Part shown: in pieces, positions 8,189-63,979 of the stretch | Layout of the letters: every line of letters starts with the position of its first letter | How positions within the stretch are numbered: position 1 is the first letter of the stretch | NCBI RefSeq assembly: GCF_024713975.1 | Contig: NC_091102.1 | Location: forward strand, 24,215,001-24,279,000 | Direction: 5' to 3' | DNA from: Paralichthys olivaceus | Taxonomy: Eukaryota; Chordata; Actinopteri; Pleuronectiformes; Paralichthyidae | DNA length: 64,000 bases | Position numbers and translations under genes: made by a program | Notes under the pieces: model-generated | Told to the model about the DNA's origin: nothing | The model's input: only the letters and a program-made list of their open reading frames with translations | Database searches by the model: none

Positions 8189-8868
8189 ATGCAACCCATG
8201 TAGATTTCAATTTTAATGAATGATCACAAGCTTACAACAGCATCTCAACTGATTCTACAAAAACACAATATTCCATTCTTTCTTTTTTTGCAGTGTTCCC
8301 TATAAACATGAAATCAGGGCTTTATATCACTCCTATAAAAATGTTGGATTGGAAAAGCTCACTTTTCTGTGTTATGACCAGCAGAGGATGACTCCAACAG
8401 TAGTTTCTGTAGAAGTCTATGAGAAAATGATTCTCACTTGATTCATAATGTCAGTAAACATAAGGAGTTTATGAGTTTATAAGGAGTTATCTCTAGTTTC
8501 ATGTCTTCTTAAATACAATATGATGTTCATTGTATAAAATTGCGGTCCATCTACAGTCAACTGTGGCCGTGAGAGCTCAATGTGCTACAAATGTAGAAAA
8601 CCATGCAAATAGAGAAAACACAATTCATCCATTTGACGACACATATGCTGCAAAAGGTCACAACACAAGCAAATACAGAAACTCTTAATTTGCAAGTGTT
8701 TTCTTGATTTGCAGTACGTTGAGCCCTCAACCGCCATACAAATACATCATAAAGCACTACATTAAAGGAATTTTTAGGGTTTATTGCTTTATTTATAGTT
8801 TAGTATAGTTTATTGTAGTTTAACTGCCTATTGATCAAAGCATCCTGTCCTGCCTTTGATCTTGACCC
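8189..8868. other. Upstream region of eIF4G copy B
   Basis: About 680 bases of AT-rich DNA between the MITE and the TATA box. No coding exon is seen. It should contain proximal regulatory sequence for copy B. The matching region for copy C is 18619-19298. Confidence 0.5.
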
Positions 8869-42736: not shown

Positions 42737-44900
42737 GTGACGGAGACAACAGCGGTGAAGGAGAAGGAAAAGGCAACGGTGACAGCAGCTGCGGCAACTG
42801 AAGACGGAACGAGCGGAGGAAGGAGAGCCCATACCAAAAAGAAAGAAGATGAAGCTGAGAGCCAGAAAACAAACGACTCAGACATGGACATGGACTTAGT
42901 ATCCAAAATCATGCAAATAAGGAAAAGACAGAATCCTCAGAGGTACCAGAGGCAAAATAAGAAAAGCAAAAACAAAAATAAATGAACATATCACTACTAA
43001 TGAAAACAATCCTAACACTAAATGCTAGAGGGCTCAACAACAAATGGAAAAGACAAGACATATATGGAATGAGTGAGTACGACATAATGTGAATTCAAGA
43101 GACGCACTGCAATGAAAGATGTGTGAATGAAGTAAAGAAAGAATGGTCAGGAGAAGTATACACTAACAATGGTGATGGGAAAGCAAGGGGAGTAGCAATA
43201 TTAATAAAAAAAAGGAGTGATAGAGAAAGTGAAGATGTGTGAGAATGATGGTGAAGGGAGGTTGATAGGGATCAAATTTAAATATATGAATGAAGAAATA
43301 AAACGTATAAATGTGCATGCAGCAAATACAGACAAGGAGAGAAAGGTGATGTTTGAACAAATGGGAGAAATGTGTGAAAGCAACAGTATAATAGTGGGTG
43401 ATTTCAATGTATGGTGTGGAAAATTAGATGTTTCCAGAAAAATGAAATATAAACATGACTCATCAAGAGGGGTATTAGAAAAGATAAAAAGTGAGAAAAG
43501 ATTGTGTGATGTGTGAAGAGACAGAAACCCAGAGGTGAAAGTATTCTCCAGAAAACAAGTGGTGAAGGGTGAATTAAAACAAAGCAGAATAGACTTAGTA
43601 TTAAGCACAAAGAAATTAGCAGAAACATTAGGTGAAATACAATACAAAATAACACTCAGCGATCACATGATGCTAAAATTCACGCTAGGGCAAGAAACAA
43701 AGACGAGAGGAGGAGGGGTGTGGTGCTTGAATGGAGAACTGCTCAAGGAAAAAAATATAAAGAAGGTGAGAGAATACATAAAATGGGAGATGGATGAGAG
43801 AATGTATGAGGACAAATTAAATATTGAAAAATCAGAAATCATGTACATAGGAGAGAGCAGAGTAGGGGAAGAAGTCTAAAAAACTAAAAGAAAACAATGA
43901 ATATATGAAGGTGTTAGGAGTGAACTTAGGGATTGAAGATAAAGAAGGGAGAGATAGGCAGTATGAAGGGATAGTAAACAACATAAAAAAGACATTAGGA
44001 ATGTGGGAACAGAGACGATTGAAATTGAAAGGGAAAGTGATAGTGGTAAACGTATTAATTATGAGCAAATTAAAATATATAATGAATGTGCTGGATGTGC
44101 CTGAGCGAGTGTTGAAGGAAGTGGAGAGAATGGTGAGTGACTTTTTGTGGGATGGGAGGGGAGTGAGGATAGCCAGAGAAGTAATGGAAAATGACTGAGG
44201 ATGGTGGGATGAAGCTAATTAATCTAGAAAGGAAAAAGAAAGCACTAAGGGTGAAAATGATGGTGAGGTTTAAAAAATAGGAGCGATCGTGTGTGGAAGG
44301 TTTTTCTGAGAGAGGCGATCAACAAGTGTGGAGGGTGTGGAGAGAGTGTAGTGTATATGGAACTGAAAAAAGGCATGCTGAATGGAGTGGGAGATTTCTA
44401 CAAAGAGCTGCTTGGAGCATGGGGTGAGTTTGTGAAATGTGTCAAGTATGAATGCAAAAATGTGAAACAAGTATGGGAACAACCAGTGTTTTTAAACCCA
44501 AAAATCACAGTTGACGGGGAAACAATATACAACAGGGTGATATGGAAAGCAGGGATTAGAAAGTTGAGGGATCTAGTTTATGAGTATGTGCCAGGGTTCA
44601 TGAGGGCTCAGATGGTGGTGGATGAGGTGAGAGAAAATGGTGATGAAATGTGGTTGGGTACAGCTTAGGGAGTGATAGAAAAAATTAAGAAGGCAATGCC
44701 GAAAGAATGGATGGATATGATCGAGAGAGAGACTGTGGTGAGGGAAGAAAGAGACACTGTTGCTGCTGTCCAGACACAGGAGGCTCCGGAAGAGATGGCA
44801 GCTGCCGCTGCAGTCGAGGCACAGGGGGCTCAGGAGAAGATGGCAATGGAATTGAATGCTGCAAGAAACAGCTCTCTGTCAGCTCTCCTGTTTTCTACTA

Positions 44901-45495
44901 TGGATTATCCAATGCAACTAGTTGAGGACAATTTTCTTCTCCAAAATTCAGTTAAAATTAAAAAAAAAAGGATTAAAATGGTACTTCAAGCTCCTGAAGT
45001 GTGTTACAGTCTCCTATGTGTTTTAACCTGTAATGGAAATTTTACATTTGTGTATGTTTAAATGCATGAGCAGACATGTATGTGGAGGACTGACCAAATG
45101 GTTAATCTAAAAAGGGTAACTTTAAGGTTTATGATGGTGGCTTAAGAGACTTGAGTTTTATGGCCTCGAGAAACCACAACTTTATGGTATCTTTTGGTAT
45201 CTCTTATTGGGATCAAACACCTGGCGTCTCACAGGGGGGTCATCCACAGAACATGTAAACAAAAGGACAAGATGTCTCCTCCACTGAGTGAAACTACAAG
45301 AGGGCAATAAAAACCTTTGCATGCTAAGTGGGAGCGGGCTGTGAGTTATAGGAACACTGATTTTCTTATGTTCTTTGCTCATTTGTGCATGTCATTCAGG
45401 TGATGTGTACTGATGAGTCCATCTGCAGATGCTGAATTAAACTTTCAGAAAGAAGTGTTTGACTTTGAGCTTGTTTCACAGAAATTGCCACCACA
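44901..45495. other. Unassigned stretch with LTR-like features
   Basis: No gene. It has AATAAAAACCTTTGC near 45306 and TTAAACTTTCAG near 45436, reminiscent of an LTR or processed 3' end, but I could not find matching ends or duplications. Confidence 0.35.
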
Positions 45496-45569
45496 ATATC
45501 CAACCAGATGATTTTTCATTTATCCGACCACCTCTCGTTTATCTGACCAGACGTCATTGCTCCGACCAT

Positions 45570-45690
45570 GTTTCTAATTTATCCAATCACATGTTGTATA
45601 TCCAACCAGATTTTTTTTCATTTATCCGACCACCTCTCGTTTAAAAAAATCTGGTTGAATATACAACATGTGATTGGATAAATGAGAAAC
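45570..45690. repeat. Near-perfect hairpin with 48-bp arms
   Basis: TTTATCCAATCACATGTTGT (left arm) pairs with ACAACATGTGATTGGATAAA (right arm), extended on both sides, around a loop that is itself a copy of CATTTATCCGACCACC. Arms are about 45570-45619 and 45643-45690. Confidence 0.85.
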
Positions 45691-46004
45691 CTTGGTGAGA
45701 CAAACAAGGGGTGTTTGGATAAATTTACGAAGTGGGATGATTCAGACCTTTATGGATATTTTAAGGTCCTCATCAGTGCATAAAAGCAGAAGAGATCATT
45801 CTGTGCTTTGTTTCTCCTCAGAAACAGATCTCTGTCTGCTCGCTAAGCCTTAAAATGATGGAGTACATGACAATGGTTGTCCGATGGTGCCTTGTGCCAC
45901 AGCCTCACATCAATTTCCCCCCATCAGGTCTTGGGTGGAACATGAGCAGGTGGAACTGTACAGAAAATGAGACCCAGCATTTGATAGTTATTTGCGCTCA
46001 GTCT

Positions 46005-46689
46005 GAGCGATGTGGTCAAGGCTGACGGTCGATTTGTTCCATCTTGTTTTGACACAGCAGAAAAAAGGAATTACGTTAGATACGTCGTAGAGGTGGAACA
46101 GAGCAACAACGTCATCCTCACAGGTAATGTGATTCTGCATACTTGTATTGCAAACGGTAATGTCAAAGACATCGGTGTAGAATTGTAAAAGTAATTTTGT
46201 TTTATAATGTTTTCTCATAGGTCCAACACGTGTCGAAGATGAGACGGACAATGAAACTGAGGAAGCTGTCACCCCTTCGCCTGTTTCTGCTGCTACCAGA
46301 TTTCTGACTGTTGCCTGTCGTGTGGACATTTGTGTTGTCTGTCTTGTGTGAACAGCCTGGAAGACGCAGGTTCAGTCATGTGCAGTGTTTGCAGAACCAA
46401 AACATTCAAGTGGTTTGACATCAAGGGGTCCCAAGAATTGAATCCTGAATGTCAGGCATGCGGCAAGGTAAAAATTTGGCTTATCAAGTGTGGACATGTA
46501 ACATGCACATGCAACAGCAGCAGATGTGTTGTCTGTGATAGCCTATCACAGAACTTCGAAAGCTGTTTCCATCAACATCAGCATGAAAAGTCAGAGGTGA
46601 AATCCTTGAGGTTGTGGAAGCGCTTTATTGTATTTCTTTGTACATTTTGTGAGAATAGCACATCCATTGTACATAACACAATGGTATAA
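46005..46689 (+). pseudogene. RING-like cysteine-rich gene remnant, two exons
   Basis: First segment: KADGRFVPSCFDTAEKRNY and VVEVEQSNNVILT, ending at donor 46123 (CAG|GTAATG). It continues after acceptor 46220 in the same frame as an acidic stretch (VEDETDNETEEAV). One frame away it reads CFCC, then CGHLCCLSC and CSVC, a RING-type C3HC4 arrangement, then a second cysteine cluster (CQACG, KCGHVTCTC, CVVCDS). A one-base slip between about 46285 and 46335 separates the two parts, so the gene is broken or an alternative splice exists. RING proteins are usually E3 ubiquitin ligases. Its place inside the motif-framed element suggests cargo or an accessory protein. I do not recognise the family. 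Confidence 0.45.
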
Positions 46690-47113
46690 ATGACCAGAAT
46701 AGATAAATAAACCGTTATAACAATGAGGAACTGTACATCTGTGAGAATAACACCATTCATTGTACATGACACAATAGTATAAATGACCTGTAATAAATAA
46801 ACCATTATAACAGTGAGACACGCGTGTTGGATTCTATGTCGTTGTATGTAATATGATGCCTCGGGGCCAGCCGAGTCATCCGCGGTCTGCAACTTCTCAA
46901 AAGAGCTCCCCTCAGGAACTTCTCAGCTTCTGTCTTGCTTTTGTGTAACAAAAAAATTGTATGGGAGATAAACTATCTTGGTTATTGGCAGAATGCCAGG
47001 TTTTCTTTTTGGTTGGATAAAGGGTGTGTGATTGGACAAAAGATGTGGTAGTAAAGAAAAGGAAGGATGAATGAAAAACTCTGGTCGGAGTAATGACGTC
47101 TGGTCGGATAAAG

Positions 47114-47193
47114 GAGTTTCTTTATTTATTTCCACATTTATTTATACAATTATTTACTTATTTATACTTAGGTCATTTCTCGTCCTCCATACA
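47114..47193. repeat. AT-rich MITE-like repeat, right half
   Basis: TTATTTCCACATTTATTTAT ... then GTCATTTCTCGTCCTCCATACA, the inverse of the start of the repeat at 28807. Confidence 0.7.
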
Positions 47194-47202
47194 CTGAAGG
47201 AA

Positions 47203-47930
47203 GAGAGTGAGCATTCAAAAGACCATATGTAGTCAAAACTCTACTTTATCCGTGTCATTTCATTATGGCACTCTCAAAATGTCATATTTAGAGAGAGCGG
47301 TGAGTTTACTCAGCATCAGGGGAAAAAACTGTACAACCCTGACATAATTAATGAAGGAAATGATTGAAAATTCAAATATTTTTTTTTTCTTGCAATACTA
47401 GGACAAAATGACACCTTCAGTTTATTTTCCCTGCACAATAAAACAGTTGAAGGAATTCCAGAGTGTCAATGGTCACAAAGCAACAAAACTGTGGATTATG
47501 GTGATGATTCTCTTTGCTGCCAGCAGATGGTGCTGTTGCTCCTGCTTCAGAGGAGACACATCTTGGAAAGAGCAGGAAAGACTGTTCATCAAAGAAAAAA
47601 AGAATATGGAACCCTCACATCATCACTGAAAGGTGAGAGTGAGCATTCATCAGATTTGTTTCTAATCAAAACACTACTTTATTCATGTTTTATTAACATA
47701 TCATTTTCAAATTGTCTTATTTGGAGAGAGCGATGAAAGAGCAGGGAGTTTACTCTGCATCAGGGAAACAACTGGAAATGAAACACTGACAATATTGCTG
47801 AAGGTCATTTTTGAAAATTGTAATGATTTTTTTCTTGCAACAATATGACAAAATTGCACCTTGAGCTTGTTTTTCATGAACAATTGCAAAGCAATAGAAC
47901 CATTGATGATGGTGATGATTCACATGTATA
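47203..47930. repeat. Degenerate direct repeat, period about 429 bp
   Basis: GAGAGTGAGCATTCA occurs at about 47203 and 47632. Each is followed by related sequence (ACTACTTTAT, GGAGAGAGCG.TGA, GAGTTTACTC.GCATCAGGG, TTTTTTTCTTGCAA, ATTATGGTGATGATTC). Clear but diverged. No coding pattern convinces me. Confidence 0.75.
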
Positions 47931-47957
47931 AAGGAGGTATTGTGGGTGGAGTCAATC

Positions 47958-47984
47958 GCTTACGGCCATACCACCCTGAACACG
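47958..47984 (+). pseudogene. 5S rRNA nucleotides 1-27
   Basis: GCTTACGGCCATACCACC followed by CTGAACACG is the start of vertebrate 5S rRNA. It then changes abruptly to GCGCATGCG. The end point AACACG (nt 22-27) is also where the 5S copy at 29771 begins. Confidence 0.85.
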
Positions 47985-48139
47985 GCGCATGCGTTACAGT
48001 CAGGTGACACTATTTTGAATTTCACGGACGTTGAGCACCGCGGGTGACTCAGCTCCGTTCTCTTCTTTTTCCTTTTTTTCCCCTCTCCTGGACTTTTCAA
48101 TGAGCAAACATATATAAATACAGCCAAGGACTGAGTGAT

Positions 48140-49620
48140 AACATCAAACAAAACCGAGTTTATACATGTCTGTCCGTGTCAACATCACATTAAACAACAA
48201 TTTAAATCATATGGGTAAAAAAATAAAGATAGTCCTAAAATCTTGGACGAGATTCGAAACGACGAGTTGAAGCAGTTTGAGCTTCTGGCCTGATGACGAT
48301 CTCATTACGCCATGGAGCCGCTGAAAAGTTCTGTGCGCTTCTCCTCAATCAAGCGCTTTTTACTCTATCAGGTGTATCACACCAGATGTGGTTTGAGGAA
48401 ACACCCATGTCATCTGGTGATAGTCCGAACACAGATTAAACACTGCATACTTATTAACAGGCTTCACAAACTGATGACCATCATTCATAGGAGAAACATG
48501 GAGTTATGGAGAATACACACGCGTGGCCAGCTCCACGCAAAGTGCCTTTGTATGACGCTGGTGATCATTTACAATGCGCACACACCAAACACCTGTCACA
48601 TGAAAACATGCCTCACATGAACAACAAGGTGGAAGCTCGCGCGGTGTTTGTGTGAGTAAAGTTGATGATCGTGCTTGTGTTGGATGTGTTTAGCTTCATG
48701 TGTCCTCCGACTCTCGCTGCTGGTTAAAGTCAGCAGACGTGATCTTAAAAGATGTGCTCGATGTTCTCGACCATGAGGTTCAGTCCTCGGAGAATGAAAA
48801 CAACCCAAACGCTCATCAGAACACGAGTGTGTTTGTTTTTCGTAGTTTCTGTATTGCCAGTGTTGTTTATCTGTGTGTGATCCACAGATGATCTGTCTGA
48901 ACTGAGTCGAGTGTGTTGTGAACGTGACACGTGTGACGAGGCAAATGTGGAAAACGAACTAAACGACTTCATGGTCGAACAACGTGTTGTGTATTTCTTC
49001 TCTTCTGTCAGATGACTACGTGCTTTGTTGGGGCTGTGTCACTCGAAGGAGTAAATAAAGTACCCTGTGTAACTATGACAACTCTGGCAAATTATAATTA
49101 TAATTATTATTATTATTGGGGCTAAATATAAATGTGAGTAAAATCCCACCACGGGAGTAGATACGCTGTGCTCCACATAAAAATGCCTCACGTAAACGTG
49201 GTGACGCTACCCACTATGCCACTGATCTGGCTGAGGAAGCATTATCACCTTTACGTTCTGATGACTGTTCTGATGACTGTGGAGTCTGCGAACCACTCAC
49301 CATGTGTTACTGTTTCAGCGAATACACCCAGGTTACCTTGTGACAGTCACAACTCAACTGTACACTCAGCATTATCGTTCATACGTCACACATTTGGACC
49401 CTGCTGCGCTTGTGTGTTTAAAACAGTACGACATCATGAAAAATTGCTATACAGAAAAGCCACCATTATTATGCGTCTTTACTATTAGTGCGCGTTTCGT
49501 GTGCTCGTTGATACCTTGGTTGGTGTGATGCAAGAATACAAACACAAATAGCGAGAGGCTTGTAACAGACACAACACAAATGCACACCTGCGCACGCATC
49601 TTCACCAGCAGGATTGTATT
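48140..49620 (+). repeat. Left inverted arm
   Basis: Matches the complement of 59288-60886 nearly base for base over long stretches, for example GTTGTGTATTTCTTCTCTTC and CACCTGCGCACGCATCTTC. An (ATT)n/(TTA)n run sits near 49090. The left arm retains about 115 bases (48300-48410) that the right arm has lost. Confidence 0.95.
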
Positions 49621-49724
49621 TGCCAATCACTTACTTGTCATTGTATTCAAACCATTCACACCTGGTGGTGGCAAAACCTATATATATTCCTTGTTCTGCT
49701 CTCTTAATGTGTAGAGAGTAAGGA
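49621..49724 (+). promoter_or_regulatory. Putative Ginger promoter region
   Basis: Between arm and microsatellite lies CCTATATATATTCC (about 49679), a TATA-like box, then CTCTCTTAATGTGTAGAGAG. Without the LINE insertion this would lie a short distance before the gene start at 55446. Confidence 0.4.
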
Positions 49725-49793
49725 GACAGAGAGAGACAGAGAGAGACAGAGAGAGACAGAGAGAGACACAGAGAGATAGAGAGAGAGAGAGAG
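49725..49793. repeat. (GA)n microsatellite, left of LINE
   Basis: GAGACAGAGAGAGACAGAG-type tract ending in pure GA just before the LINE tail. Its partner tract is at 55357-55400, so the LINE sits inside one original GA/TC tract. Confidence 0.9.
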
Positions 49794-49898
49794 TTAGATT
49801 TTTTTTTTTTTTTTACAAAAACACTTTATTTACATATTTTCATTTGTACAGGTTTTTAAAATAAAGTGTTCATGTAATTAGAATAATTTAAAAATACA

Positions 49899-52800
49899 TC
49901 AAACAGTTAAAAAGTGTGGAAAAGACAGCTCATCATCATTTACGGTGCAGATTATGTTTTTAAAACACCAGCATTTTTTAAAAGACTCGAGATCAGAGAT
50001 ATGTTTATAAAAGTTGAACTCGAGTCTGAGTCTTGCTCGGAGGTTTGTCACCCACACTGCCATTGCTTCCTGCCCTTCCCTGTTTTCCACCCTGTGTTTA
50101 CGGCTGATATAAATTGCCAGTTTGGCTTCACCTGAGAGGAAGTTAAGGAGCTGCCACTTCTCTTTATTAAAATTCTTGTAGCCAGCTCCCATGATAAAAA
50201 CCTTCTCAGTAAAAATAACGTTAAAAAGACTAAAAAACCATGGTTAAAAGAGAGAAGAGACTTGTGAGTCTCTTGCACTCTGTAAAAACGTGATAGACAG
50301 TCTCACGTTTATATAAAACGCCACTGTGGGCTGGGTCTATTTTCACCCCACCTCTGTGTCCACACAGTGGGGGGCCTGTTGCTCAGTCGGGACTGGTGGA
50401 TGCTCTTTACACAGTTCCTGTAGAGGGTTTTTTTGTCACCTCTGTGTATGGTTAGTTTTTGTTTATTTACTACAGTGAGTAGGGGGCCGGTCTTCTCCCC
50501 CAGCCCTGGGCTCAGGATGATATCAGGGTAGGGGTCTGCAGCATCAGGTTTGATTTCTTTGCTTTGGTGGCCCCTCAGGAGGCTCTTTTCTTCTTCGGAG
50601 AGCCTCTGGGTCCAGAGTTCAAGGATCCTCTGGGCCACCCGGAGAGACTGCAGCCCCAGCAGAGAGCCCAGGGCCTGGGTGTTGGTCAGTGTCGGCCCCA
50701 CTGCATCCACCAGCTGCTGTAGGGTCAGGGTTCCAGACCGGATCAGCGCCGCCATCAGGCCATGTGTTGTTTTGTTGCTGACGTCCAGTCTGGCTCCATT
50801 GACGAGGGGTTCTCTCAACAACCAGTGCAGAGAGTTGGCTTCTGGGAACCTTTTATGGTTAAAAAGGGCCCATGACTTAAAAACACCTTGATAAAAAGGA
50901 GGTAACATAGTTAGTTTTAAAAATTTAGGATCAGTTAAAAACAGAGCATCATCCAACCCCAGCTTATTGGCACGCCTCAGGATGCTGCTGGCCACATCTC
51001 TCCACACCAGATCTGCCAGACCTGTGAGGTACCTTTGTATGAATTGGAGTCTAAAAGTGGCAGTCCGGCTGGCCAGGTGGACAAGGCCCTGTCCCCCCTC
51101 CTCTCTGTCTAAAAACAGCACTCCCTGTGGCACCCAGTGCAGACCACACCAGAGGAAGTCAACCATCTTCCTCTGGATTTCTGCGAGTAAGCCTGGGGGG
51201 GGGGTCTACACAGGTTAGTCGGTGCCACAGCTGGGATGCTACTAAGTTGTTTAAAACCAGAACTCTACCTCTAAGAGACATCTGGGGGAGCAGCCATTTC
51301 CAATTGTTGAGTTTGTTTTGAATTTTTTCTGTGACGGTCTCCCAGTTCTTCTTCATTATGTGGTCTGCTCCTAAAAACACCCTGAGATATTTTAAACCTC
51401 CTTTCTTCCACTCCAGATTTTAGGGGAGAACCGGGAGACCACTGCGCCACTCACCGACAGCAAGGGCTTCGCTTTTTTTCCAGTTGACCCTCGCTGCCGA
51501 TGCCAAGCTAAAATCCTTGATAATGTCTACTAAAACGCCAACCTCCATTTGGTTCTTAATAAAAACTATAAGATCGTCTGCGTAGGCAGATAAAATCATG
51601 TTTCTACTAAAACCAGGATAAAAGAACCCTTGAAGGTTGGAACGTATTTTGTGGAGGAGAGGTTTCAGGGAGAGAGCGTAGAGCATCCCTGACAGAGCGC
51701 AGCCCTGCCTGACACCTCTACACACTCTAAAAGGAGCACTCAGACTGCCGTTGACCTTCAGCACACTCTCAACATCACTGTACAGCACCTTGATCTTAGC
51801 TATGAAGCCAGCGCTGAACCCAAACTTCTCCATCACTTTCCACAGGACGCTGTGTTCAACACGGTCAAAAGCCTTTTCTTGGTCTATGGAAATGAAACCA
51901 GTGTTTGCACCTAATGAACTAGAGACATCCAAAACATCTCGAATCAGGTGGACATTGTCCACCATGGACCTGCCGGGGACGCAGTAGGTCTGGTCCCGAT
52001 GGATGACCTGCTCCATAGCCTTTCCCAGCCTGGAGGCCAATACTTTGGACAGGAGTTTGTAATCCACACAGAGCAGTGACACAGGGCGCCAGTTTCTGAT
52101 GTCCTGCAGGTTCCCCTTTTTGGGCAGTAGTGTGAGGACTGCCCTCCTGCAGGACACTGGCATGGAACCAGAGGCCAGACACTCATTAAAAACCTCTGAG
52201 ACATCCTTTGCGAGGATGTCCCAGTAGGCCTTATAAAATGTTACTGTGAGGCCATCAATGCCAGGAGCTCGCCATCCCTGCATGCCCTGCAGGGCGGTCA
52301 GTAGCTCCTGCATCTGGAGGGGGCCCTCGAGCTGTGAGTTGGTCTCTGCAGAGACCTGGGGTAGTCCCCTGCAGTAACCTTCCAGGAGCGCCGGCTCCTC
52401 CTTGTACTCGGTGGAGTATAAAAGTTGATAAAAGCTCACAGCCCGCCCTCGTATCTGGCTTGGTTCCGTCAGTTCTTGCCCCGTGTCAGACAGCAGTGCG
52501 TGGATTACTTTCCCCTGCCCGTTCTTTTTCTCCAGGCTGAAGAAATAGCTAGAGGGAGCATCCATCTCTGTGATGTTCTGGAACCGGGACCTGACCAAGG
52601 CGCCCTGTACTTTACTGTCCAGCAGGTCGGCTAAAGCCATTTTTTTCTCTTTGAGGCTTTCAATATAACCTCGATTTCCGGTGGACTCACTTAAATGTTC
52701 TAGTTCCACTATGTCGGTCTCTAGATCCTTCATAGATCTGGTGCTATCTCGTGTGATGTTTAGTGTGTGCTGTTGACACAATAGTCTTATTTGTGTCTTA

Positions 52801-53747
52801 CCATGATCCCACCACTGCCTAAGATTGTTAAACTCGCCCTTCCTCTGTCTAAAAACACCCCAGAAATAAATAAAGACCTCTCTAAAACTCCTATCAAATG
52901 TTAAAACAGAATTAAAATGCCAATAAGCAATTTTGGGTAAAATGTTCCTGATAAAAACATGAGATAAAATGAGAGAATGATCAGTAAAACCAGCAGGCAT
53001 AATGACACAACTCTTAAAAATGTTAAAATTATGTTTAAAACAATAAATACAGTCTAGTCTGGCTAAGGAGACCCTGCTCTCTCTGAAGTGGGACCAGGTG
53101 TACTGTCTGGAGTCTGTGTGCATCCTCCTCCACACATCCACCAGGCCGTGAGAGCGGACCAGCTGCTTCAAGGCGTGCTGAGAGGCTGCATGAGGCTCTG
53201 TGTGGTTCCGATCTAAAATCGCATCTTCAGTGCAGTTACAATCCCCCACCAAGAATAAAAAATCCTCCGTAGAGCAACCATTTAAAACGTCATTTACTTT
53301 GACTAAAAACTGCTTCCTCTCTGCACCAGATGTTGGAGCATAAATGTTGATAAAAACAGCAGCAAAATGGTCGAACTGAGCTTTGACTAAAAGAAGCCTC
53401 CCCTCAATAAAATGTTGGACCTCCAGTGCCTTGGGTTTAAAAGCCCGTGAGAAGAGGAAGCCCACTCCTCCACTGAGGGAGGTGTTGTGACTTAAAATGG
53501 CTTCCCCTTCCCACTCCCTCCTCCAGTCAGACTCATTATTAAAATCACTATGTGTTTCTTGTAAAAAGAAGACATCTATTTTTTTCATTTTGGCTGATTC
53601 ATAAATAAAATGTCTTTTCTTTTGGTCTCTTGCACCGTTTACGTTTAAAACACCTATTTTAAAAACATCCATAGTGGTTGAGATGCTAAAGACTATAATA
53701 GAAAACAATAAGTTAATTAAAACACACATTGCTGCCTTTTCCATCAC
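49899..53747 (-). pseudogene. LINE ORF2: endonuclease and reverse transcriptase
   Basis: Starts at about 53747, overlapping the end of ORF1 by some 35 bases in another frame. Endonuclease motifs: LNVNGARD, FLQETHSDF, VFINIYAPTS, LVGDCNCTED, LDCIYCF, TDHSLILSH. RT motifs: LPKKGNLQDIRNWRPVSLL, FISIDQEKAFDRVEH, GVRQGCALSGMLYAL, LSAYADDLIVF. The frame stops at 51422-51420 after GLPVLP, then shifts at a G-run near 51194-51203 and again near 50300. Downstream pieces (MVDFLWCGLHWVPQGVLF, RILELWTQRLSEEEKSLL, ending near 49899) complete the usual C-terminus. It is a recent but inactive copy. Confidence 0.9.
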
Positions 53748-55150
53748 TGCTCAGTTGTTTTTTTGCTTTGAGCACAAGTTTCTTTAATCTAAAAACCTCC
53801 TGATCTGCAAGGCCAGACTCTTCCCTCTGGCTCATGTGGAGTCTGGCCGAGGAAATAAAAGGACCTAAGTCTGGGAAGTGTTCTTCCACCTTCACCCCGT
53901 GTTGGTTTTTGGTTTGATGTAGGAAATGTTTTAATTTTTCTCCAGTGAACATTTTCTTTTTTTGACTGCTGTTAAAACTTGGGACATCGCTGCTGTCAGA
54001 CACACACTCATTCTCACTTTCATCACTCTGATTTTCCTCCACTTTGCTGTTTTTTGCTTCGTTGGTTGCACCTCTGGTTGATCTCCTGCGTTTCATTGTT
54101 TGCTTTGGTTTTACTGCTTTTTCTGCCTCTTCCTCCATCTCAGCCTCCTCCACCTGTTCACTCCATGGTACACTACTCTCTCCAGTTTTATTTCCTTTAT
54201 TTACATTGATTTCTCCACCCTTCCCTTGCTGCTCACTCTTTTCTTCACCCCCTTTCCTTTCCTCCTCACCTGTCTTCTCCTCCACCTGTTTCACACACAC
54301 CCCACTCCCACCACTTTCTTCTTTTCCTCTACCTCACCCAAAACACCCTCCTCACCCAAAATACCGTCCACCCTCACACCCTGTGCATTAACAGAACTCA
54401 CCCTATGTGTCGGGTCGGCCACAGCGACGGGTCTCCGCGGAGCGACCGGCCCCCTGGGCGGAAGGTCCGCCGCCGCGGGAGCGGCGCCCCAGGTGGGAGC
54501 CCTCCGCCGCTCCGGTGCCGGTGGAGCGGCGGGGGCTCCAGCGTCTGCAGCCGCCCCCGGGCCGGGTGGAGCCGGGTCGCTCCGTCTCGGACAGGCTCTC
54601 ACCGTGTGTCCCTCCTCTCCACAACCGAAGCACTTCATCACCGATGAAGTGGCAAAAATCACGTAGTCGTAATCATCTACTTTAACGTGGAAGCAAAGGT
54701 TGAGCTCCTTGCTCCGGTTGTTAAGTATCATATACAGTTTTCTCCGGTGAGACACCACGTGTTTCAGTAATGGAGACTTACATCCAGACAACATCTTGCG
54801 GATCGGGGACGCCACCTTCCCGTGTCTGGACAGCTCTCTGCTGAGGAACTCATCGTTTATGAAGGGGGGGACGTTCGACAGGACTACCTTGGTGGCGGGT
54901 TGGGACAGAGGTAGCACCTTGTACGAAAACGCCGTTCACGGTGATTCCTGTCTCGACGACCGAGTTCACCTTCTACACTCGGTCTAGGAAAACAACCACG
55001 GCACTGTTCATTAGAGCGGCCGACACGACACCGCCGTGGCCGACCTTCTCCCCCACAGCGAGGCTGAGGTCCTCCACGCTGCAGGGGAAGGTGGCAGAGA
55101 TCTTAACACCGTGTTTGCGGGTGAGATGTTAAAAACTCCCGCTAGACATG
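53713..55150 (-). pseudogene. LINE ORF1: CCHC nucleic-acid-binding protein
   Basis: Pieces in order: VEDLSLAVGEKVGHGGVV and MNSAVVVFLDRV, a TAG, VETGITVNG; then, after a shift near 54915, KVVLSNVPPFINDEFLSREL, MLSGCKSPLLKHVVSHRR and a CCHC knuckle (CFGCGEEGHTVRAC). A Pro/Ala-rich GC-rich stretch (54406-54600) follows, then, after another shift near 54300, a Glu/Lys-rich tail ending at 53713. This is the usual ORF1 layout of fish Tx1-clade elements. At least one stop and two indels break it. Confidence 0.8.
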
Positions 55151-55356
55151 GCGCCTGCCACGTACCGGCAAGACGCAGGTGAGGGGAAACACACAAATAC
55201 ACCAAACACTAAACTGCAAACTACTGTGAGATAATGTGATTATTGAACTATGTGAGAAATATAACATTAAATAGTGAGAAAATAAGGCAAATGAAACGAT
55301 TTAACGCTAGACACCACCACCAGCTCTCAGCTCCAAACACACTCACTCCGCCATGA

Positions 55357-55400
55357 CAGAGAGAGAGAGAGAGACAGAGAGAGAGACAGATAGAGAGATA
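55357..55400. repeat. (GA)n microsatellite, right of LINE
   Basis: AGAGAGAGAGAGAGACAGAG continuing to GATAGAGAGATAG. It lies 46 bases before the Ginger start codon and is the right part of the tract split by the LINE. Confidence 0.9.
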
Positions 55401-55445
55401 GATAAATAGATATACATAGTATAGTAGTATTTAGATTTAATCAAA

Positions 55446-58400
55446 ATGGACCCTAAACTGGTCAGAGAAATTACAGACTTCCTGAAGCATAATGCCTTTC
55501 CGTTAGGTTTAACCTCTAAACAAAGATACATCATAAAGAGGAGTGAAAATGATACCTTTAAGGGTAAGTAAAAGGTGTTCCACACAATAAAGCAGTAATG
55601 TGGACTTACTAATATCATCATGGCCCTCAGATGGGCAGCTTCATTACACATGCCGTCGAAGGAGGCAGGGTGACTACCAGGCCAAAGTAGTTACCTCCCC
55701 AGACAAGGCAAATGGCATCTTTGTGGCCTTCCATGCAAGTGAGCATGGTGGCCACTGTGGAATGGAAAAAACTGTGGATGCCATTTCCTTGAGGTACTAC
55801 TGGCCTGGGATGGAAAAGGACATACGAAAATGGGTGAGCTTGATCTAATATTGTTAGTAATCTCTGTACATGGTAGTTTAAGGTAAACACACTCTTTCAT
55901 ATTCAATTTGTTTATCTTCTCATTTACTGATTTCTGAAATTTGTTTAGGTATTGGAGTGTCCGCAGTGCCAGGCCAAACGGAATGTCCTCAAGATAAAGA
56001 CGGCTTACGTCCCAATTGAGGTGACTGCACTGAAATAACTCCCTAACCCAGAATAAGATTTCATTTCCATATCATGCTTTGTTTTCCTCAGGTAACGGAG
56101 CCACTTGAGCTTGTGGGCATGGATCTGGTGGGAAAATTGGCACCAACCAGACAAGGGCACCAATATATCTGTGTGATGATTGATTATTTTACTAAATGGA
56201 CTGAGGCCTATCCTCTAAAGACTAAGTGTGCTGCTGAGGTCACAGAGTGCATCTTTAACTTCTTTTATAAGTTTGGTGCTCCAAAAAGGCTTCTAACAGA
56301 CCAAGGAAGAGAATTTGTTAATGAGGTAAGAACTCCTAATGCCATCTGAATCTTAAATTATATGGTGTCAATATGAATGTTTCCACCTTTCTTACAGCTC
56401 AACTACAATGTCTGTGAGAAGCTGGGGATAAAAAGAAGTCTATGCTCTCCCTACCATCCCCAGACCAACGGCTTAGTGGAAAAAATTAATGGGACTATTC
56501 AAAGGTATTGTAAATGTCTATTTCCGTCTTCATTAACACTGCAAAGTTAAGGTCACAGTGTTGGGTGTATGATCTTGCAGGACCTTGACTAAGTTGGTTC
56601 GGGCCTAACCTAATACTTGGGATGGGCACCTCCAAGCGACACTGTTTGCGCTAAGGACCAAGAAGCAGCTCACCACCAAATACTCCCCGTATTTCCTCAT
56701 GTTTGGCCGTGAGGCCATGTACCCTACTGAAGTTCCAGAAGAGTATCTGGTATGTAGTAAAGTACACATGTAATGTGTGTATTGGGGTAATAATGGAAAT
56801 TATGATTCTTAACTTCATGGTTGCTGTTACTCAACATTCTGAAGTGTTTCTTGACACAGGTGACCGATGAGGGTGTGGAGGCCCTCATTGGCCAGGAAAC
56901 ACAACCTCTGGGTACACAGAACCTCCCAGCACACTACACCATAGCTCAAGCCAACATGGGGAAGATGAGGGACAAGATCAAGAGAAAAAGAGAGGAGTTG
57001 GGACAAGATGACAGATTTGAAGTTGGAGACAAGGTGATGAGGGCAAATAAACGCCAGGAGCAAAAGAAGGGGGGGGGAATGGAGACCTCCATGCTTGGCC
57101 CCTTCACCATAATAAAATTGGAAGGGAAAAGTGCTGACCTGGTAACAGAGAAAAGCAAGATGATTCACAAGGTCAACATTGACCAACTCAATAGATATAT
57201 TGAGCCCACCCCACGCATCCCCCACAAATGGGTTACTGACTCACCCTCATCTCCTACCGTCTCACCCTCACCTCCTGCCATCTCACCCTCATCACCAGCC
57301 ATCTCACCCTCATCTCCAGCCGTCTCACCCTCACCTCATGCCATCTCTGTGTCATCTCCAGCCATGTCAGCAGTGTTTGTCCCTGCAAAACTTTGCAAAA
57401 AAGTCCATTTAGACACTTTAGAAGCAGGTAATAGCAAATAATGAGTACAATTATTTTGCTAATGTTTATTGCAAGTAATCTGTCAACTTTTTTCTGTATA
57501 GTAGTAGAGACAATCTGGGCCGAGCAAGCACCAGAGGTATTACGGAGCAAAATTGGCCCATACTTGCTTTTCACACACAACCTCCGGGAACACCTTTCTC
57601 CAGGGACACTTCTGGAAAGTGAGGTAAGCAAGAAAGGTTTCAGCATTTTATTTTGCATTCACATGTGGGTAAAAATTTGATTTCATTACAGATCATAAAT
57701 GCCTACCTCACACTTTGCCTGAGGAAATTCAGTAGAGGAGGCAAAGGCCAGTGCTTTTTAATTGATTCTTTTCAGATGACTGACATTTGGAAAGGGAAAA
57801 CCAAAGGGCTGAGGAAGGTAAGTTATAAATGTGATTACACTGAAAATTAGGGAGGATTGTCTTATTCCTTCACTCGTAAACCCATATGTTTGTTTTCTTT
57901 GTCCTATGTTTATTTATTCTGCATCTCAATATTAGAGCAGATTCCTCATGTGAAAAATGTTTTCTGTGTACTATATTGCATAAATGCAGGTGGATCCACT
58001 GGACTATGACATTATGGTTGGAGCTGTCTGTGAAAACCAGCACTGGACACTAACAGTAAGGGGCTGTGGCTATAATCACACTATACAGCTCCTGTTTGAA
58101 TAATTCCTTATTTGCTTTTATAATTTGTCCAGGTGATGTATCCAAAGGAGAAGCGCTCTGTCTATGTGGATCCTTTTGGGGCACAGAAAGAGGCATTACA
58201 AAAATGCAGTGCAGTGACCAGGTAGAGGGGGGGCAATGGTCCCGCTGGTCCTGTGAGACGGTTACTCCCGCTCATCAAGAGGATGCCACATCATGTGGTG
58301 TTATTGTGTGTAAAGTAAGTGAACGTGCTTTGAATCAATCATTCCAAAAATAAATGGTTGGACCGTTTCTGCATCTGTGTTTTCCACTTGTTTCTTGTTT

Positions 58401-58829
58401 CAGTTAGCAGACATGATTTTAAATGGAGAAGAGTTCAATGTCATTTTTAATAAGCCAACTATCCTGTATGAAAGAATGCAGATAAGTCAGCGGCTGATCA
58501 ACGCAACAGGTTGGTGTTTTATTTGTTTTTATTAGATATTGTAAAACAAGAGCTATTTATTTGAGAAAATAACATAACTATGTTTCATGAACAGATGATT
58601 TGTCTGGACTATGCCGAGTGTGTGGTGTGTATGACACAGATGTGCAATGGGTGAGGCAGACTTTAAGCACTTTCAGTTTATGCATGTCTTACTTATGGTA
58701 CTGCAATACATGTTAATGTTTTTTCTCTACTTCCAGATTGCTTGCACACTATGTTACAGCTGGTATCACTTAAGCTGTGTTGGGCAACCAGGAGTGGATG
58801 GTGACTTTTACTGTCCTATGTGCATCTAA
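55446..58829 (+). pseudogene. Ginger-type transposase: integrase, ULP1-like protease, PHD finger
   Basis: Fourteen exons of about 740 codons: 55446-55563, 55631-55833, 55949-56020, 56092-56325, 56398-56504, 56581-56749, 56860-57427, 57502-57623, 57692-57817, 57990-58055, 58133-58314, 58404-58509, 58595-58650 and 58737-58829. Domains: H2C2 zinc module (HASEHGGHCGMEKT ... CPQCQAK), integrase core with D (GMDLVG), D (LLTDQGREF) and E (NGLVEKINGT), a GPF-like region (RFEVGDKVMRA, LGPFTIIKLEG) and a Ser/Pro repeat linker. A ULP1-like protease with H (NQHWTLT), D (YVDPFG) and C (ATSCGVIV), and a PHD finger (CRVCG, CTLCYSWYHLSC, YCPMC) follow. A TAA in exon 6 (56606-56608) and a one-base slip at a G-run in exon 11 (58222-58233) break it. 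AATAAA follows the stop. Confidence 0.9.
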
Positions 58830-59287
58830 TAAATTATTTATGTACTAAAACTCCCTCCTGGCTGGTCTACCCGCTAGTGCTATCCAACTACTGCAGCAGC
58901 TGGACTTGTCTTTAATTTACCTAAATTCACTCACACCACTCTGCTCTTCATATTACATTGAATTCATATGTAGCTGGCTACGTACCACATGCTATTCAGG
59001 TAGCTTGATTGATTTATTGAAATGTCAAAAAAATAAAAGTGCCTTAATCCTCTTATACCTTTTTTGTGTAGTTATTCAGAGACTGTGTATTCTGTGTAGT
59101 GTGTGGGTGAAGGCATAGCTTTTGATATTTTCACACAAATAAATACCTTCACATTCAGACCAGGTTAGACCTTTCAAATGACATTGGAATCGAGAAAAAC
59201 CATCATGGGGTATATTAAGTTAAAGTTAAATGTAGTTGACATCTCACAAATTAAGGTAACTAACTATGCGGTTCAACAAACGCTAAC
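58830..59287. other. Ginger 3' region, no gene
   Basis: AATAAATTATTTATG directly after the stop may serve as poly(A) signal. A second AATAAAAG lies near 59033. Nothing else recognised before the right arm. Confidence 0.5.
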
Positions 59288-60886
59288 ACAATCCTGCTGG
59301 TGAAGATGCGTGCGCAGGTGTACATTTGTGTTGTGTCTGTTACAAGCCTCTCGCTACTTGTGTTTGTATTCTTGCTTCACACCAACCAAGGTATCAACGA
59401 GCACACGAAACGCACACTAATAGTAAAGACGCATAATAATGGTGGCTTTTCTGTATAGCAATTTTTCATGATGTCGTACTGTTTTAAACACACGGGCGCA
59501 GCAGGGTCCAAATGTGTGACGTATGAACGATAATGCTGAGTGTACAGTTAAGTTGTGACTGTCACAAGTTAACCTGGGCGTATTCACTTAAACAGTAACA
59601 CATGGTGAGTGGTTCGCAGACTCCACAGTCATCAGAACAGTCATCAGAACGTAAAGGTGATAATGCTTCCTCAGCCAGATCAGTGGCATAGTGGGTAGCG
59701 TCACCACGTTTACGTGAGGCGTTTTTATGTGGAGCACAGCGTATCTACTTCCGTGGTGGGATTTTACTCACATTTATATTTAGCCCCAATAATAATAATA
59801 ATTATTATTATTATAACTTGCCAGAGTTGTCATAGCTACACAGGGTACTTTATTTACTCCTTCGAGTGACACAGCCCCAACAAAGCACGTAGTCATCTGA
59901 CAGAAGAGAAGAAATACACAACACGTTGTTCGACCATGAAGTCGTTTAGTTCGTTTTCCACATTTGCCTCGTCACACGTGTCACGTTCACAACACACTCG
60001 ACTCAGTTCAGACAGATCATCTGTGGATCACACACAGATAAACAACACTGGCAATACAGAAACTACGAAAAACAAACACACCCGTGTTCTGATGAGCGTT
60101 TGGGTTGTTTTCATTCTCCGAGGACTGAACCTCATGGTCGAGAACATCGAGCACATCTTTTAAGATCACGTCTGCTGACTTTAACCAGCAGCGAGAGTCG
60201 GAGGACACATGAAGCTAAACACATCCAACACAAGCACGATCAACAACTTTACTCACACGTGAGCTTTCACCTTGTTGTTCATGTGAGGCATGTTTTCATG
60301 TGACAGGTGTTTGGTGTGTGCGCATTGTAAATGATCACCAGCGTCACACAAAGGCACTTTGCGTGGAGCTGGCCACGCGTGTGTATTCTTCATAACGCCA
60401 TGTTTCTCCCATGAACGATGGTCATCAGTTTGTGAAGCCTGTTAAGTATGCAGCGTTAAATCTGTGTTCGGACTATCACCAGATGACATGGTGGCTGTGG
60501 CTGAGGGGGTAGAGCGGTCGTCCTCCAACCAGAGGAGATCCCCAGTCTTCCCATCTGCATGCCAAAGTGTCCTTGGGCAAGATACTGAACCCCAAACTGC
60601 CCCAAAGTGCTATCTATAGAAGCACTCTGTGTGTGAATGGGTGAATGGAAAACTGTAGTGTAAAGCACTTTGAGTGGTCTTCAAGACTAGAAAAGCTATA
60701 TAAATACAAACCATTTACATATGAGATCGTCATCAGGCCAGAAGCTCAAACTGCTTCAACTCGTCGTTTTGAATCTTGTCCAAGATTTTTGGACTATCTT
60801 TATTTTTTTACCCATATGATTTATATTGTTGTTTAATGTGATGTTGACACGGACAGACATGTATAAACTCGGTTTTGTTTGATGTT
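59288..60886 (-). repeat. Right inverted arm
   Basis: Inverse of the left arm, with scattered substitutions. A short dispersed repeat (60486-60720) replaces part of it. Sequence outside (60887 onward) has no counterpart outside the left arm. Confidence 0.95.
60486..60720. repeat. Short dispersed fish repeat in right arm
   Basis: Contains GGCTGAGGGGGTAGAGCG, GTGTCCTTGGGCAAGATACTG, TGAATGGGTGAATGG and AAAGCACTTTGAGTGGTC in order, a repeat I recognise as frequent in teleosts with a tRNA-like head. The arm reads up to GATGACATGG and resumes at GAGATCGTCATC, so roughly 115 bases of arm were lost at the insertion. Confidence 0.75.
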
Positions 60887-60934
60887 TATTTCAACGAGAG
60901 CTTCAGTGTATCACCGCTTCACACACAGGCGCTC

Positions 60935-62333
60935 CGGGGAAAATGACGAATCTGCGACCGAGACGGCAACCGACCAACAACATCTGGAATAAAGACAACA
61001 AATCACCAGAAGCCATGATCCCCAGTTAACCTGGAACACCAGGAACACAAGTGGCAGACGGGACAAGATACTCGTCCCGTCTACCATACTCGACAAAATT
61101 CAACACCGCCCTCGGAACAGAATTCTTCAGACTCATTCACGACAAACAGACGAAGGTCTGCGGGATGTGCATGCAGCCAGGACACATCCTCAGAGAGTGC
61201 CCTGAATTCCAGTGCCACAGATGCGGACTTCAGGGGCACTACGCGAGAGAATGCGAAAGCAAAATGGACATAACAAAAGGAAAAAACGGACTTAAGGTTG
61301 GGGAAGACGAAACCATGGAGCTCGAGGGAATGGGAGGAGACACGGAGGAGGAAGGGCGCGACAGAGAAGAGGGGAGTGAGGACTCAGATGACAGCGACGG
61401 GGAGCACGGAGCAGCAGAGGAGACAGAGATGACAGAAGCGATGATGACGTCAGCGGCGGAGATGGAGGTAGCTGCGGTGACGGAGTTAGCAGCGGTGACG
61501 AAAGCAGCAGCGGTGAAGGAGATAGCGGCTGCAGCGATGAAAGACGGAGTGAGCGGAGGAAGGAGAGCACAAACCCAAATGGAAGAAGATAAAGCGGAGA
61601 ATAAGAAAACAAACGACTCAGACATGGACTTAATGACTAAAATCATGCAAAGGAAAAGACAGAATCCTCAGAGGCAACAGAGGCAAAATAAGAAAAGCAA
61701 AAAACAAAAATAAATGAACATAACACTACTAATGATAACAATCCTAACACTAAATGCAAGAGGGCTCAACAACAAATGGAAAAGACAACACATACGGACT
61801 GAGTGAATACGACATAATGTGTATTCAAGAGACACACTGCAATGAAAGATGTGTGAATGAAGTAAAGAAAGAATGGTCAGGAGAAGTATACACTAACAAT
61901 GGTGATGGGAAAGCAAGGGGAGTAGCAATATTAATAAAAAGAAGGAGTGATAGAGAAAGTGAAGATGTGTGAGAATGATGGTGAAGGGAGGTTGATAGGG
62001 ATCAAATTTAAATATATGAATGAAGAAATAAAACGTATAAATGTGCATGCAGCAAATACAGAGAAGGAGAGAAAGGTGATGTTTGAACAAATGGGAGAAA
62101 TGTGTGAAAGCAACAGTATAATAGTGGGTGATTTCAATGTATGGTGTGGAAAATTAGATGTTTCCGGAAAAATGATATATAAAAATGACTCATCGAGAGG
62201 AGCATTAGAAAAGATAAAAAGTGAGAAAAGATTGTGTGATGTGTGGAGAGACAGAAACCCAGAGGCGAAAGTATTCTTCAGAAAACAAGTGGTGAAGGGA
62301 GAATTAAAACAAAGCAGAATAGACTTAGTATTA
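60935..62333 (+). pseudogene. Tx1-like LINE, copy II (3' end lost)
   Basis: ORF1 is open from 61051 (GTG) to TAA at 61711-61713, 220 codons. It has LGTEFFRLIHDKQT, CCHC knuckles (CGMCMQPGHILREC and CHRCGLQGHYAREC), an acidic stretch (EDETMELEG, EDSDDSDGEHG), an Ala/Val/Thr-rich part and a basic end. Upstream codons (NLRPRRQPTNNIW) reach to about 60940 with one stop. ORF2 begins at ATG 61714 right after the stop and gives endonuclease pieces (TLNARGLNN, IQETHCNERC, IIVGDFNVWCG, SRIDLVL) with frameshifts. Homology to copy I ends abruptly at 62333. Copy II lacks the solo LTR found in copy I. Confidence 0.85.
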
Positions 62334-62575
62334 CAGTTTTTCACAATTGTTAAAACATGTTTTATGAATCCTCCGGTCCTTTTCTCAGAATTCTAAACAC
62401 ACAACTCTTTTCTCAAACTACATTCACAAAACCTTCTTTTTGCAAAACCATACCATCTCCTCAAAATAGTTTTACATGTGCTCAAAACCGAGCAATGTTG
62501 TCAGATCTTGCACGAATCGGTCAAAATAGAAAAACTGCTGAGCTGTCATTAAACACTACACCAAAAAATTGAAAA
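62334..62575. mobile_element. End of a DNA transposon (TA/CAG type)
   Basis: At TA|CAGTTTTTCACAATTG the LINE sequence is replaced by a non-coding AT-rich block resembling the end of a TA-inserting transposon. The other end is not recognisable before the LTR at 62588, so it is a fragment. Assignment is tentative. Confidence 0.35.
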
Positions 62576-62587
62576 CACAGTGGTCAA

Positions 62588-62901
62588 TGAGACAATCCTC
62601 AACTTGGCAGAGACTCAGTAGCAGAGAAAACGAGTGAGGCAGAAAAATAAAGTATTAAATCAAACTTTACTTAGATGTCCAAAGAAACAAGTCCATACAG
62701 GTAACAGGCAGAAAACGAATGATGGCAATCTGGCAGAGGGTGAGGGGAAACACAGGGTTTAAATAGGGGATGCTTAATGACAACAAGGTACAGGTGTGTG
62801 GGGGAAACCAACGGGAAGTAAAGCTAGACACAAGAACCCAGACACCAAAATAAAACAGGAAGTGAAATCAAAAACAGACACAGACTGAACAGATCGTTAC
62901 A
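62588..62901 (-). repeat. 3' LTR of a minus-strand LTR element
   Basis: On the minus strand the block runs TGTAACGATC ... ATTGTCTCA, with TATTTAAACCC as a possible TATA box. A purine run (TTGAGGGGGAGGTAC, 62902-62916) lies just upstream of its TG, as expected for a polypurine tract. Internal sequence therefore extends to higher coordinates and off the window. Confidence 0.6.
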
Positions 62902-62957
62902 GTACCTCCCCCTCAAGGGACGGCTCCAGACGTCCATAAATGAATCTAAACAAGGAC

Positions 62958-63979
62958 TCAACCTGAAACTGAGAGGGGTGGGAGGAGGGTGGGAATCTGG
63001 AACAGAGCACGGGGCTCGGGCGGTCGGCCCGGAGGCCGGTCAGAAACTGAGCCCGGGGGCTCGGGCGGGCGGCCCGGAGGCCGGTCAGAAACAGAGCCCA
63101 GGGGCTCGGGCGGGCGGCCCGGAGGCCGGTCAGAAACAGGAACTGAGGCGAAGCTTGGCGAGACCCGCAACCGTGGAACAGGAACAGGAACTGAAGCGGA
63201 GCCAGGCGAGACCCGCAACCGTGGAACAGGAACTGAAGCGGAGCCAGGCGAGACCCGCATCCGTGGGACAGGAACAGGAACTGAAGCGGAGCCAGGCGAG
63301 ACCCGCAACCGTGGAACAGGAACTGAAGTGGAGCCAGGCGAGACCCGCATCCGTGGGACAGGAACAGGAACTGAAGCGGAGCCAGGCGAGACCCGCAACC
63401 GTGGAACAGGAACTGAAGCGGAGCCAGGCGAGACCCGCATCCGTGGGACAGGAACAGGAACTGAAGCGCCGCTCGCCGTAACCCTCAGCCGAGGGACAGG
63501 AACTGGCGAGACGACTGCTTGAACCCCCGACCGTGGGGCAGGAACCGGAACTGGAGAGCCGCTCGCCGTAACCCTCAGCCGAGGGACAGGAACTGGCGAG
63601 ACGACTGCTTGAACCCCCGACCGTGGGGCAGGAACAGGAACTGGAGAGCCGCTCGCCGTAACCCTCAGCCGAGGGACAGGAACTGGCGAGACGACTGCTT
63701 GAACCACCGACCGTGGGGCAGGAACAGGAACGGCTACCTCCGAAACTGGAACGTGAGTAGCATCTGCGGGAATCCCCGACGCCGGAACATGAGTGACGTC
63801 AGCCAGGACCCCCGACGCTGGAACGTGGGTAGCATCGGCCGGGATCCCCGACGCCGGAACATGAGTGACGTCAGCCGGAACCCCCGACGCTGGAACGTGG
63901 GTAGCATCTGCCGGGATCCCCGACGCCGGAACGTGAGTGACGTCAGCCGGGACCCCCGACGCTGGAACGTGGGTAGCAT
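62958..63979 (-). repeat. Multi-tier GC-rich minisatellite, open on the minus strand
   Basis: Four repeat tiers follow each other: about 45 bp x3 (62995-63130, RPPGRPPEP), alternating 42/48 bp (63137-63470, VPRLRVSPGSASVPVP), 90 bp x3 (63480-63720, VTASGSPVPVP) and 72 bp (63734 to end, built from 36-bp halves). Minus-strand frames 63707-62958 and 63979-63734 are open and Pro/Val/Arg-rich. The position just upstream of a polypurine tract and LTR places it in the 3' internal part of a retroelement. I assign no function. Confidence 0.75.

Follow-up and report, generated by a model that had tools for sequence, protein, structure and literature searches.

A degraded Ginger1-like DNA transposon with long inverted arms in the genome of Paralichthys olivaceus

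According to the accessible parts of a 2010 survey, Ginger1 transposons insert at CCGG (75%) or CCGT/ACGG (24%) targets, have terminal inverted repeats (TIRs) of 40-270 bp and 0-4 introns, and were found only in invertebrates; one of them, Ginger1-9_HM, carries both Ulp1 and PHD modules, and GIN1 and GIN2 of vertebrates have been proposed to derive from Ginger1, the GIN genes having six to eight introns (PMC2836005). In the sections consulted of other reports, Ginger1 relics are listed for frog, coelacanth, turtle and alligator (PMC9004415), GIN2 is reported in fish (PMC3424704), and Ginger is among the teleost repeats counted (PMC4746887; PMC7915175), so that Ginger in fish is not new as repeat annotation. 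No paper on Ginger1 with long TIRs was found in the open literature searched; Repbase, which may hold fish Ginger1 elements, was outside this search. Here we analyzed a 64,000-nucleotide (nt) stretch of Paralichthys olivaceus DNA (contig NC_091102.1, positions 24,215,001 to 24,279,000; hereafter the window), which holds a degraded Ginger1-like DNA transposon. We consider it highly likely that it belongs, as a degraded copy, to a Ginger1-like cut-and-paste lineage of teleosts that has ~1.63-kb TIRs of its own. All coordinates are positions in the window, and copies, labelled C with a number, were searched for in the same genome assembly (588 Mb, 25 contigs).

The two arms of the element, 48140-49623 and 59282-60886, are 96-99% complementary in four blocks, and their alignment comprises 1222 columns at 96.4% and 166 columns at 97.6% identity. 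With such length and identity chance is no serious explanation, and the inverted arms that had been predicted at 48140-60886 are real; the boundaries required correction. Other genome copies match the right flank out to about 61038-61040 and begin there with the tip TGTTCCAG[G/T]TTAACTGG or a slightly substituted version of it, thus the element ends at 61038 and not at 60886. On the left side the match to other copies breaks off at 48140, and the outer ~152 bp of the left arm (the counterpart of 60887-61038) is gone. The left TIR therefore occupies 48140-49623 on the plus strand, as indicated by self-complementarity and genome copies, and the right TIR (59282-61038, minus strand) is full to the tip TGTTCCAG, read inward. 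A 229-bp dispersed repeat at 60492-60720 has replaced 99 bp of the right arm; the 1528-base right-arm ruler without this insert plus the 99 bp gives a complete inverted repeat of ~1.63 kb. Directly outside the right end lies CCAG (61039-61042), a 4-bp target in the CpG-decay form of CCGG. Minus later insertions the window element measures ~7.2-7.4 kb (~7.36 kb by subtraction, lost left tip included), and the C6 copy, which has its left tip at L009 1497 and is truncated on the right at 8585, spans ~7.1 kb.

The arms recur elsewhere in the genome, and the first 861 bp of the left arm has at least 52 matches. Both arms of C6, the left arm of C24c and a single arm in each of C23, C2 and C21 are matched over most of their length, and only parts are kept in C13a, C13b and C16. 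Whole or partial arms were found together with the gene in C6, C24, C23, C2, C5 and C21; in the C24, C23, C2 and C21 gene copies one arm is whole or largely kept and the other partial, with the same tip. In the C21 gene copy, about 78% identical to that of the window, the inner edge of the arm is present on both sides, and just inside 49623/59282 of the window copy we found no short TIR, only 7-base chance matches. The arms belong to the transposon family. In a tree of 11 arms the two window arms are sisters (100/99), as are the two C6 arms (100/98), a pattern that suggests homogenisation of the arms within an element, probably by gene conversion. Four further arm fragments of ~95% identity are located at C5:23479070, 23489591, 23497206 and 23691259; three of these lie less than 20 kb apart, which looks like amplification of an arm piece as part of a larger local repeat.

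Next, the tips and their flanking bases were compared. The gene has at least 34 and the tip at least 29 genome matches; judged by position, 18 of these 29 extend to the tip, a pattern match added the second C23 end (19 in total), and the other 10 stop short. After counting the window and its 99.8%-identical C4 copy once, and likewise three C24 copies with one shared flank, 16 tips at 15 insertion loci remained (the C13a pattern row at L020 2905 is a chance match and not the C13a tip counted). Read towards the tip, CCGG lies outside 5 of the 16 tips (C23 right, C21, C13a, C7a and C9) and CTGG or CCAG outside 7 (window right, C6, C2, C23 left, C16, C7b and C10:25.70M). CTGG and CCAG are one CpG transition away from CCGG. 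The three 4-mers make up 1.01% of window positions, and the binomial chance of finding them at 12/16 tips is about 2e-21; the target is thus of the CCGG type known from Ginger1. The terminal bases are TGTTC at 12/16 tips, CGTTC at two, TTTTC at one and TGTTG at one (C11). Both tips are retained in a single copy, C23, flanked by CTGG and CCGG. The alignment of arms across copies that had been proposed as a check thus defined the tip and the 4-mer target, with both flanks seen in C23 only. Of the 203 bases used as the query, only the outermost ~77 are matched at the C7a and C10:25.70M tips. This hints that the outer tip may be what is recognised and that the remainder of the arm may be dispensable. 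The tip also contains a near-palindrome (CCAGTTAACCTGG, 61019-61034), and a similar 16-mer is located in the inner arm at 59562-59577; a sub-terminal repeat search of the element gave weak 14-20-base matches only.

Between the arms lies one spliced transposase gene on the plus strand (55446-58829), as predicted. Its exons, with GT-AG borders assigned by eye, yield one protein that aligns almost full length to fish relatives, the conserved parts running across exon borders unbroken. Fourteen exons are visible (13 introns), one of them being a fusion across a deletion. The read-through protein has 737 letters (four of them X), within the ~500-800 amino acids of a single Ginger1 transposase. Pfam detected the H2C2 zinc-binding module in exons 2-3 (55631-56020, E 8.7e-18), the DDE integrase core rve in exons 4-5 (56092-56504, E 1.4e-17) and the PHD finger, which with the stop codon fills the last two exons (58595-58829, E 2.3e-5, 24.8 bits against a cut-off of 24). 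In the alignment, inspected by eye, the D, D and E residues are kept with 35 residues between the last two. Exon 7 (56860-57427) encodes the GPF motif MLGPFTI, which by eye aligns with LGPF of the fish relatives and corresponds to the GPY/F motif of Ginger1; the same exon also encodes a Pro/Ser-rich linker that contains 21-bp tandem repeats. Ginger1 has a YPYY motif upstream of its zinc finger, and a possible counterpart here is FPLGLTSKQRYI, which lines up with YP... stretches in the relatives. The Ulp1-like protease module (57692-58314) scores 19.8 bits for Peptidase_C48 in this damaged copy, just under the cut-off of 20.7; its H-D-C triad (QHW, VDPFG and TSCG) is kept in the alignment by eye, and all four relatives scanned (P0002, P0007, P0142 and P0213) pass the cut-off. 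The gene thus has a C-terminal Ulp1-like module and a PHD finger, as known from Ginger1 with its OTU or Ulp1 module and, in some cases, PHD, and the four predicted modules are borne out. No reverse transcriptase (RT) was found in the gene by Pfam; the RT in the interval belongs to a minus-strand long interspersed nuclear element (LINE).

The gene is broken in the window. Exon 6 contains a stop codon, and the Ulp1-like part has a deletion of about 88 bp relative to C23 and C5 and 60 bp relative to C6, leaving it ~10 residues short of the relatives there. With the left tip lost, the gene broken and the LINE sitting between gene and left arm, autonomous movement of the window copy is very improbable.

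Protein relatives numbered 352 at E <= 0.001, of which the best 120 were listed, and 19 of the first 20 listed carry a fish name. In the precomputed domain annotation all four domains occur in 2 of these best 120 (P0005 and P0010). By direct scan P0002 has all four, as do P0213 (Astyanax) and the sponge protein P0142 (Ephydatia muelleri), and P0007 has three with its PHD under the cut-off. We built a tree of the integrase core from 53 rows, the window plus 52 selected from 320 proteins. It split 39 Ginger-like rows, OTU/Ulp1 transposases included, from 14 Gypsy rows (100/98), and the window core falls with the Ginger-like rows rather than with Gypsy, within a 12-row fish clade (100/100) where P0031 (Coilia) is its sister and P0008 (Labeo) the next branch (100/92 and 100/99). 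Other integrases of the same genome, most of which lie in long open frames and were assumed to be Gypsy pol, are 27-42% identical, compared with 70-96% for the Ginger exons among the matches listed.

Among described systems, Hydra Ginger1-9_HM and the other Ulp1-type Ginger1 elements share with the window element H2C2, DDE, GPY/F and Ulp1 in one protein (PHD also in Ginger1-9_HM), a CCGG-type 4-bp target and the TGT start. They differ in their listed TIRs (44-120 bp versus ~1.63 kb), their introns (0-4 versus 13) and their fifth terminal base, a purine versus C here. The teleost relatives, compared by protein and not by DNA ends, belong to the same protein family with H2C2 and rve plus Ulp1 and/or PHD (P0002 Brachyhypopomus, P0005 Triplophysa, P0006 Astyanax and P0007 Paramormyrops) or are incomplete members (P0008 Labeo and P0031 Coilia). 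The sponge P0142 has the four modules above the Pfam cut-off, but its core is distant and branches apart from the fish clade. Gypsy long terminal repeat (LTR) retrotransposons have a related integrase core; they form a separate clade, the window gene has no RT, and in place of an RT/RNase H polyprotein between direct LTRs the element has inverted ends. Ginger2/Tdd elements have an AT-rich RTATAY target and no GPY/F, whereas the target here is of the CCGG type and GPF is present. Polinton/Maverick elements resemble the window element in having an integrase-type transposase, a cysteine protease and long TIRs. They differ in their target duplication of 6 bp, as given in the part consulted of a published account (PMC10045372), versus a 4-bp CCGG-type target here, and H2C2 and GPF are present here; the Polinton combination of protein-primed polymerase, capsid genes and 6-bp duplication was not found. 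Between the arms the longest frames are those of the LINE, and no other is long enough for a B-family polymerase, although not every short frame was scanned. The original prediction had called the locus its best candidate for an undescribed system, which is too strong since close protein relatives are common in teleosts and Ulp1 together with PHD already occurs in Ginger1-9_HM, on the accessible text of the survey (PMC2836005).

Several observations weigh against a long-armed Ginger1-like lineage. The TIR of ~1.63 kb is about six times the longest in the published 40-270 bp range, so the expectation that the arms exceed known Ginger TIRs was right (PMC2836005, in its accessible part), and 13 introns stand against the published 0-4. 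The Ginger1 end TGTNR is seen at C11 only, base 5 being C in 15 of the 16 tips. Since two terminal features do not fit, we use the label Ginger1-like rather than plain Ginger1. Four of the 16 tips are flanked by other 4-mers, namely CCAT (C24; one CpG transition from CCGT), TGGG (C13b), CCGA (C4:7.57M) and CAGG (C11). Only C23 has both flanks, and these agree at 3/4 bases, so the 4-bp duplication is drawn from one copy. Of the loci fetched, only C6 and the window, along with the C4 duplicate of the latter, still have two long arms. The three C24 copies have just ~169 bp of their second arm left, C2 has only part of its second arm, and the older copies C16 and C15 gave no inverted arms; two tips, two arms and an undamaged gene do not occur together in any fetched copy. 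In the arm tree the C2 and C23 pairs are not resolved as sisters, one row of each being less than half filled and C2_R sitting on a long branch. The core tree that had been proposed as a check separated the window from Gypsy, but it has no row labelled Hydra Ginger1 and none known as GIN1 or GIN2; no Hydra name appears among the names shown for the 320 proteins (best 120 per list, many nameless). Several fish rows are named 'gypsy retrotransposon integrase-like protein 1' and none was assigned to GIN1 or GIN2, so the core tree has no sure anchors.

The original prediction allowed either a Ginger lineage with long arms or the capture of a Ginger in a larger fold-back unit. The same arms and tip at other gene copies favor the lineage. 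Under capture, a short-TIR Ginger would be carried as cargo by an unrelated fold-back unit, which would account for arm pieces that occur without the gene and for arms far beyond the published Ginger1 range. However, the outer tips bear the Ginger1-type CCGG target, the window copy has no inner short TIR, the 78%-identical C21 copy has the same inner arm edge, and arms and gene recur together in C6, C24, C23, C2, C5 and C21; within this one genome, no gene copy with short TIRs inside the arms was found. The gene-less pieces (C13a, C13b, C7, C9 and others) share the tip and mostly a CCGG-type flank, which points to decayed or deleted derivatives rather than to an unrelated inverted duplication. 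We therefore regard capture as very unlikely. Nor do we give much credit to a secondary inverted duplication at this locus, by rearrangement or assembly error, with arms that are not transposon ends. The area is rich in recent segmental duplications, two of which break inside the left arm at 48400, and there is the 99.8% identical copy on C4, but C6 and, partly, C23 have inverted arms at other loci that end at the same tip, and a local inverted duplication was rejected for this reason; its probability is close to nil. Equally hard to sustain is the idea of a GIN-type host gene that descends from Ginger1 by domestication and has repeats around it only by chance. The many introns recall the six to eight of GIN genes and the catalytic motifs are mostly kept, yet the gene is multicopy with arms and a target 4-mer, its frame is broken in the window, and the copies at C6, C24 and C21 differ from it by about 9-22%.

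For the long-armed Ginger1-like lineage, we infer that the H2C2/DDE part would pair two TGTTCCAG tips and join them to target DNA cut at CCGG with a 4-bp stagger, which would produce 4-bp CCGG duplications. The PHD finger may act as a chromatin reader, steering the element to chromatin, and the Ulp1 module may strip SUMO, either from host repair or from the transposase itself. A bolder version, in our view improbable, is that the kilobase arms are functional and re-made identical at each move, for example by a panhandle or hairpin intermediate together with repair or replication across the arms; the lineage would then move in part by copying and form a bridge from cut-and-paste Ginger to self-synthesising Polinton-type elements. 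Ginger1 may link DNA transposons with LTR retrotransposons, and the long-armed lineage, apparently of fish and with arms that are perhaps homogenised internally, offers a setting for studying how transposases of the integrase type locate such long ends and what keeps the arms alike. It also bears on the many fish proteins that carry the name 'gypsy retrotransposon integrase-like protein 1'.

Later insertions account for much of the present size of the window copy. A plus-strand spacer (49624-49793), with a GA-rich stretch at its end, leads from the left arm to the nested LINE on the minus strand (49794-55357, boundaries approximate), which takes up ~5.56 kb of the between-arm distance and has RT (E 1.2e-35) and endonuclease (E 1.7e-6) matches; its zinc-knuckle open reading frame is just below the Pfam cut-off. 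This LINE sits in GA-rich sequence between the left arm and the gene, where C6 has about 90 bp instead. In C21 the arm is interrupted by a ~5.4-kb stretch (C21:18142495-18147980; L019 from ~4495). A short sequence is repeated close to each end of this stretch, which is probably an LTR retroelement. The C24 copies contain a ~346-bp repeat at two sites (L014 4793-5137 and L015 9610-9955) that are 97% alike and look like solo LTRs.

The neighborhood is duplicated in several places. A stretch of L023 (C10:24.10 Mb) shares 99.9% identity with window 42755-48400, as does one of L024 (C10:24.19 Mb) with 43605-48400; both duplications end within the left arm, at 48400. The C4 locus matches window 45537-63546 at 99.8%. 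These segmental duplications could be either real or an assembly matter. The flanks 47880-48139 and 61039-62400 look like pieces of one LINE, with a zinc-knuckle frame at 61030-61713; at the C11 locus (L025) pieces related to the left and right flanks stand side by side. Comparison of the C11 LINE with the joined window flanks suggests that both flanks derive from one LINE, the joint around the lost left tip being too diverged to reveal a target duplication. Left-flank-related sequence is also present about 300 bp outside the tip in C24b and C24c. The sequence GCTTACGGCCATACCACCCTGAACACG at ~47965-48010, which resembles the start of vertebrate 5S ribosomal RNA, gave no Rfam match at the gathering threshold or at E <= 1, so a 5S origin of this flank was not confirmed. 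Farther upstream, an integrase at about 35424-36032 on the minus strand, in a 1651-residue open frame, is probably Gypsy. Equally scoring matches occur on C10 at two further places, with successive spacings of 74 and 84 kb, and on C4 at two places separated by 63 kb. Arrays of a 36-bp tandem repeat at 891-1239, 11329-11641 and 21756-22036 recur about every 10.4 kb, a spacing that suggests a tandemly duplicated unit.

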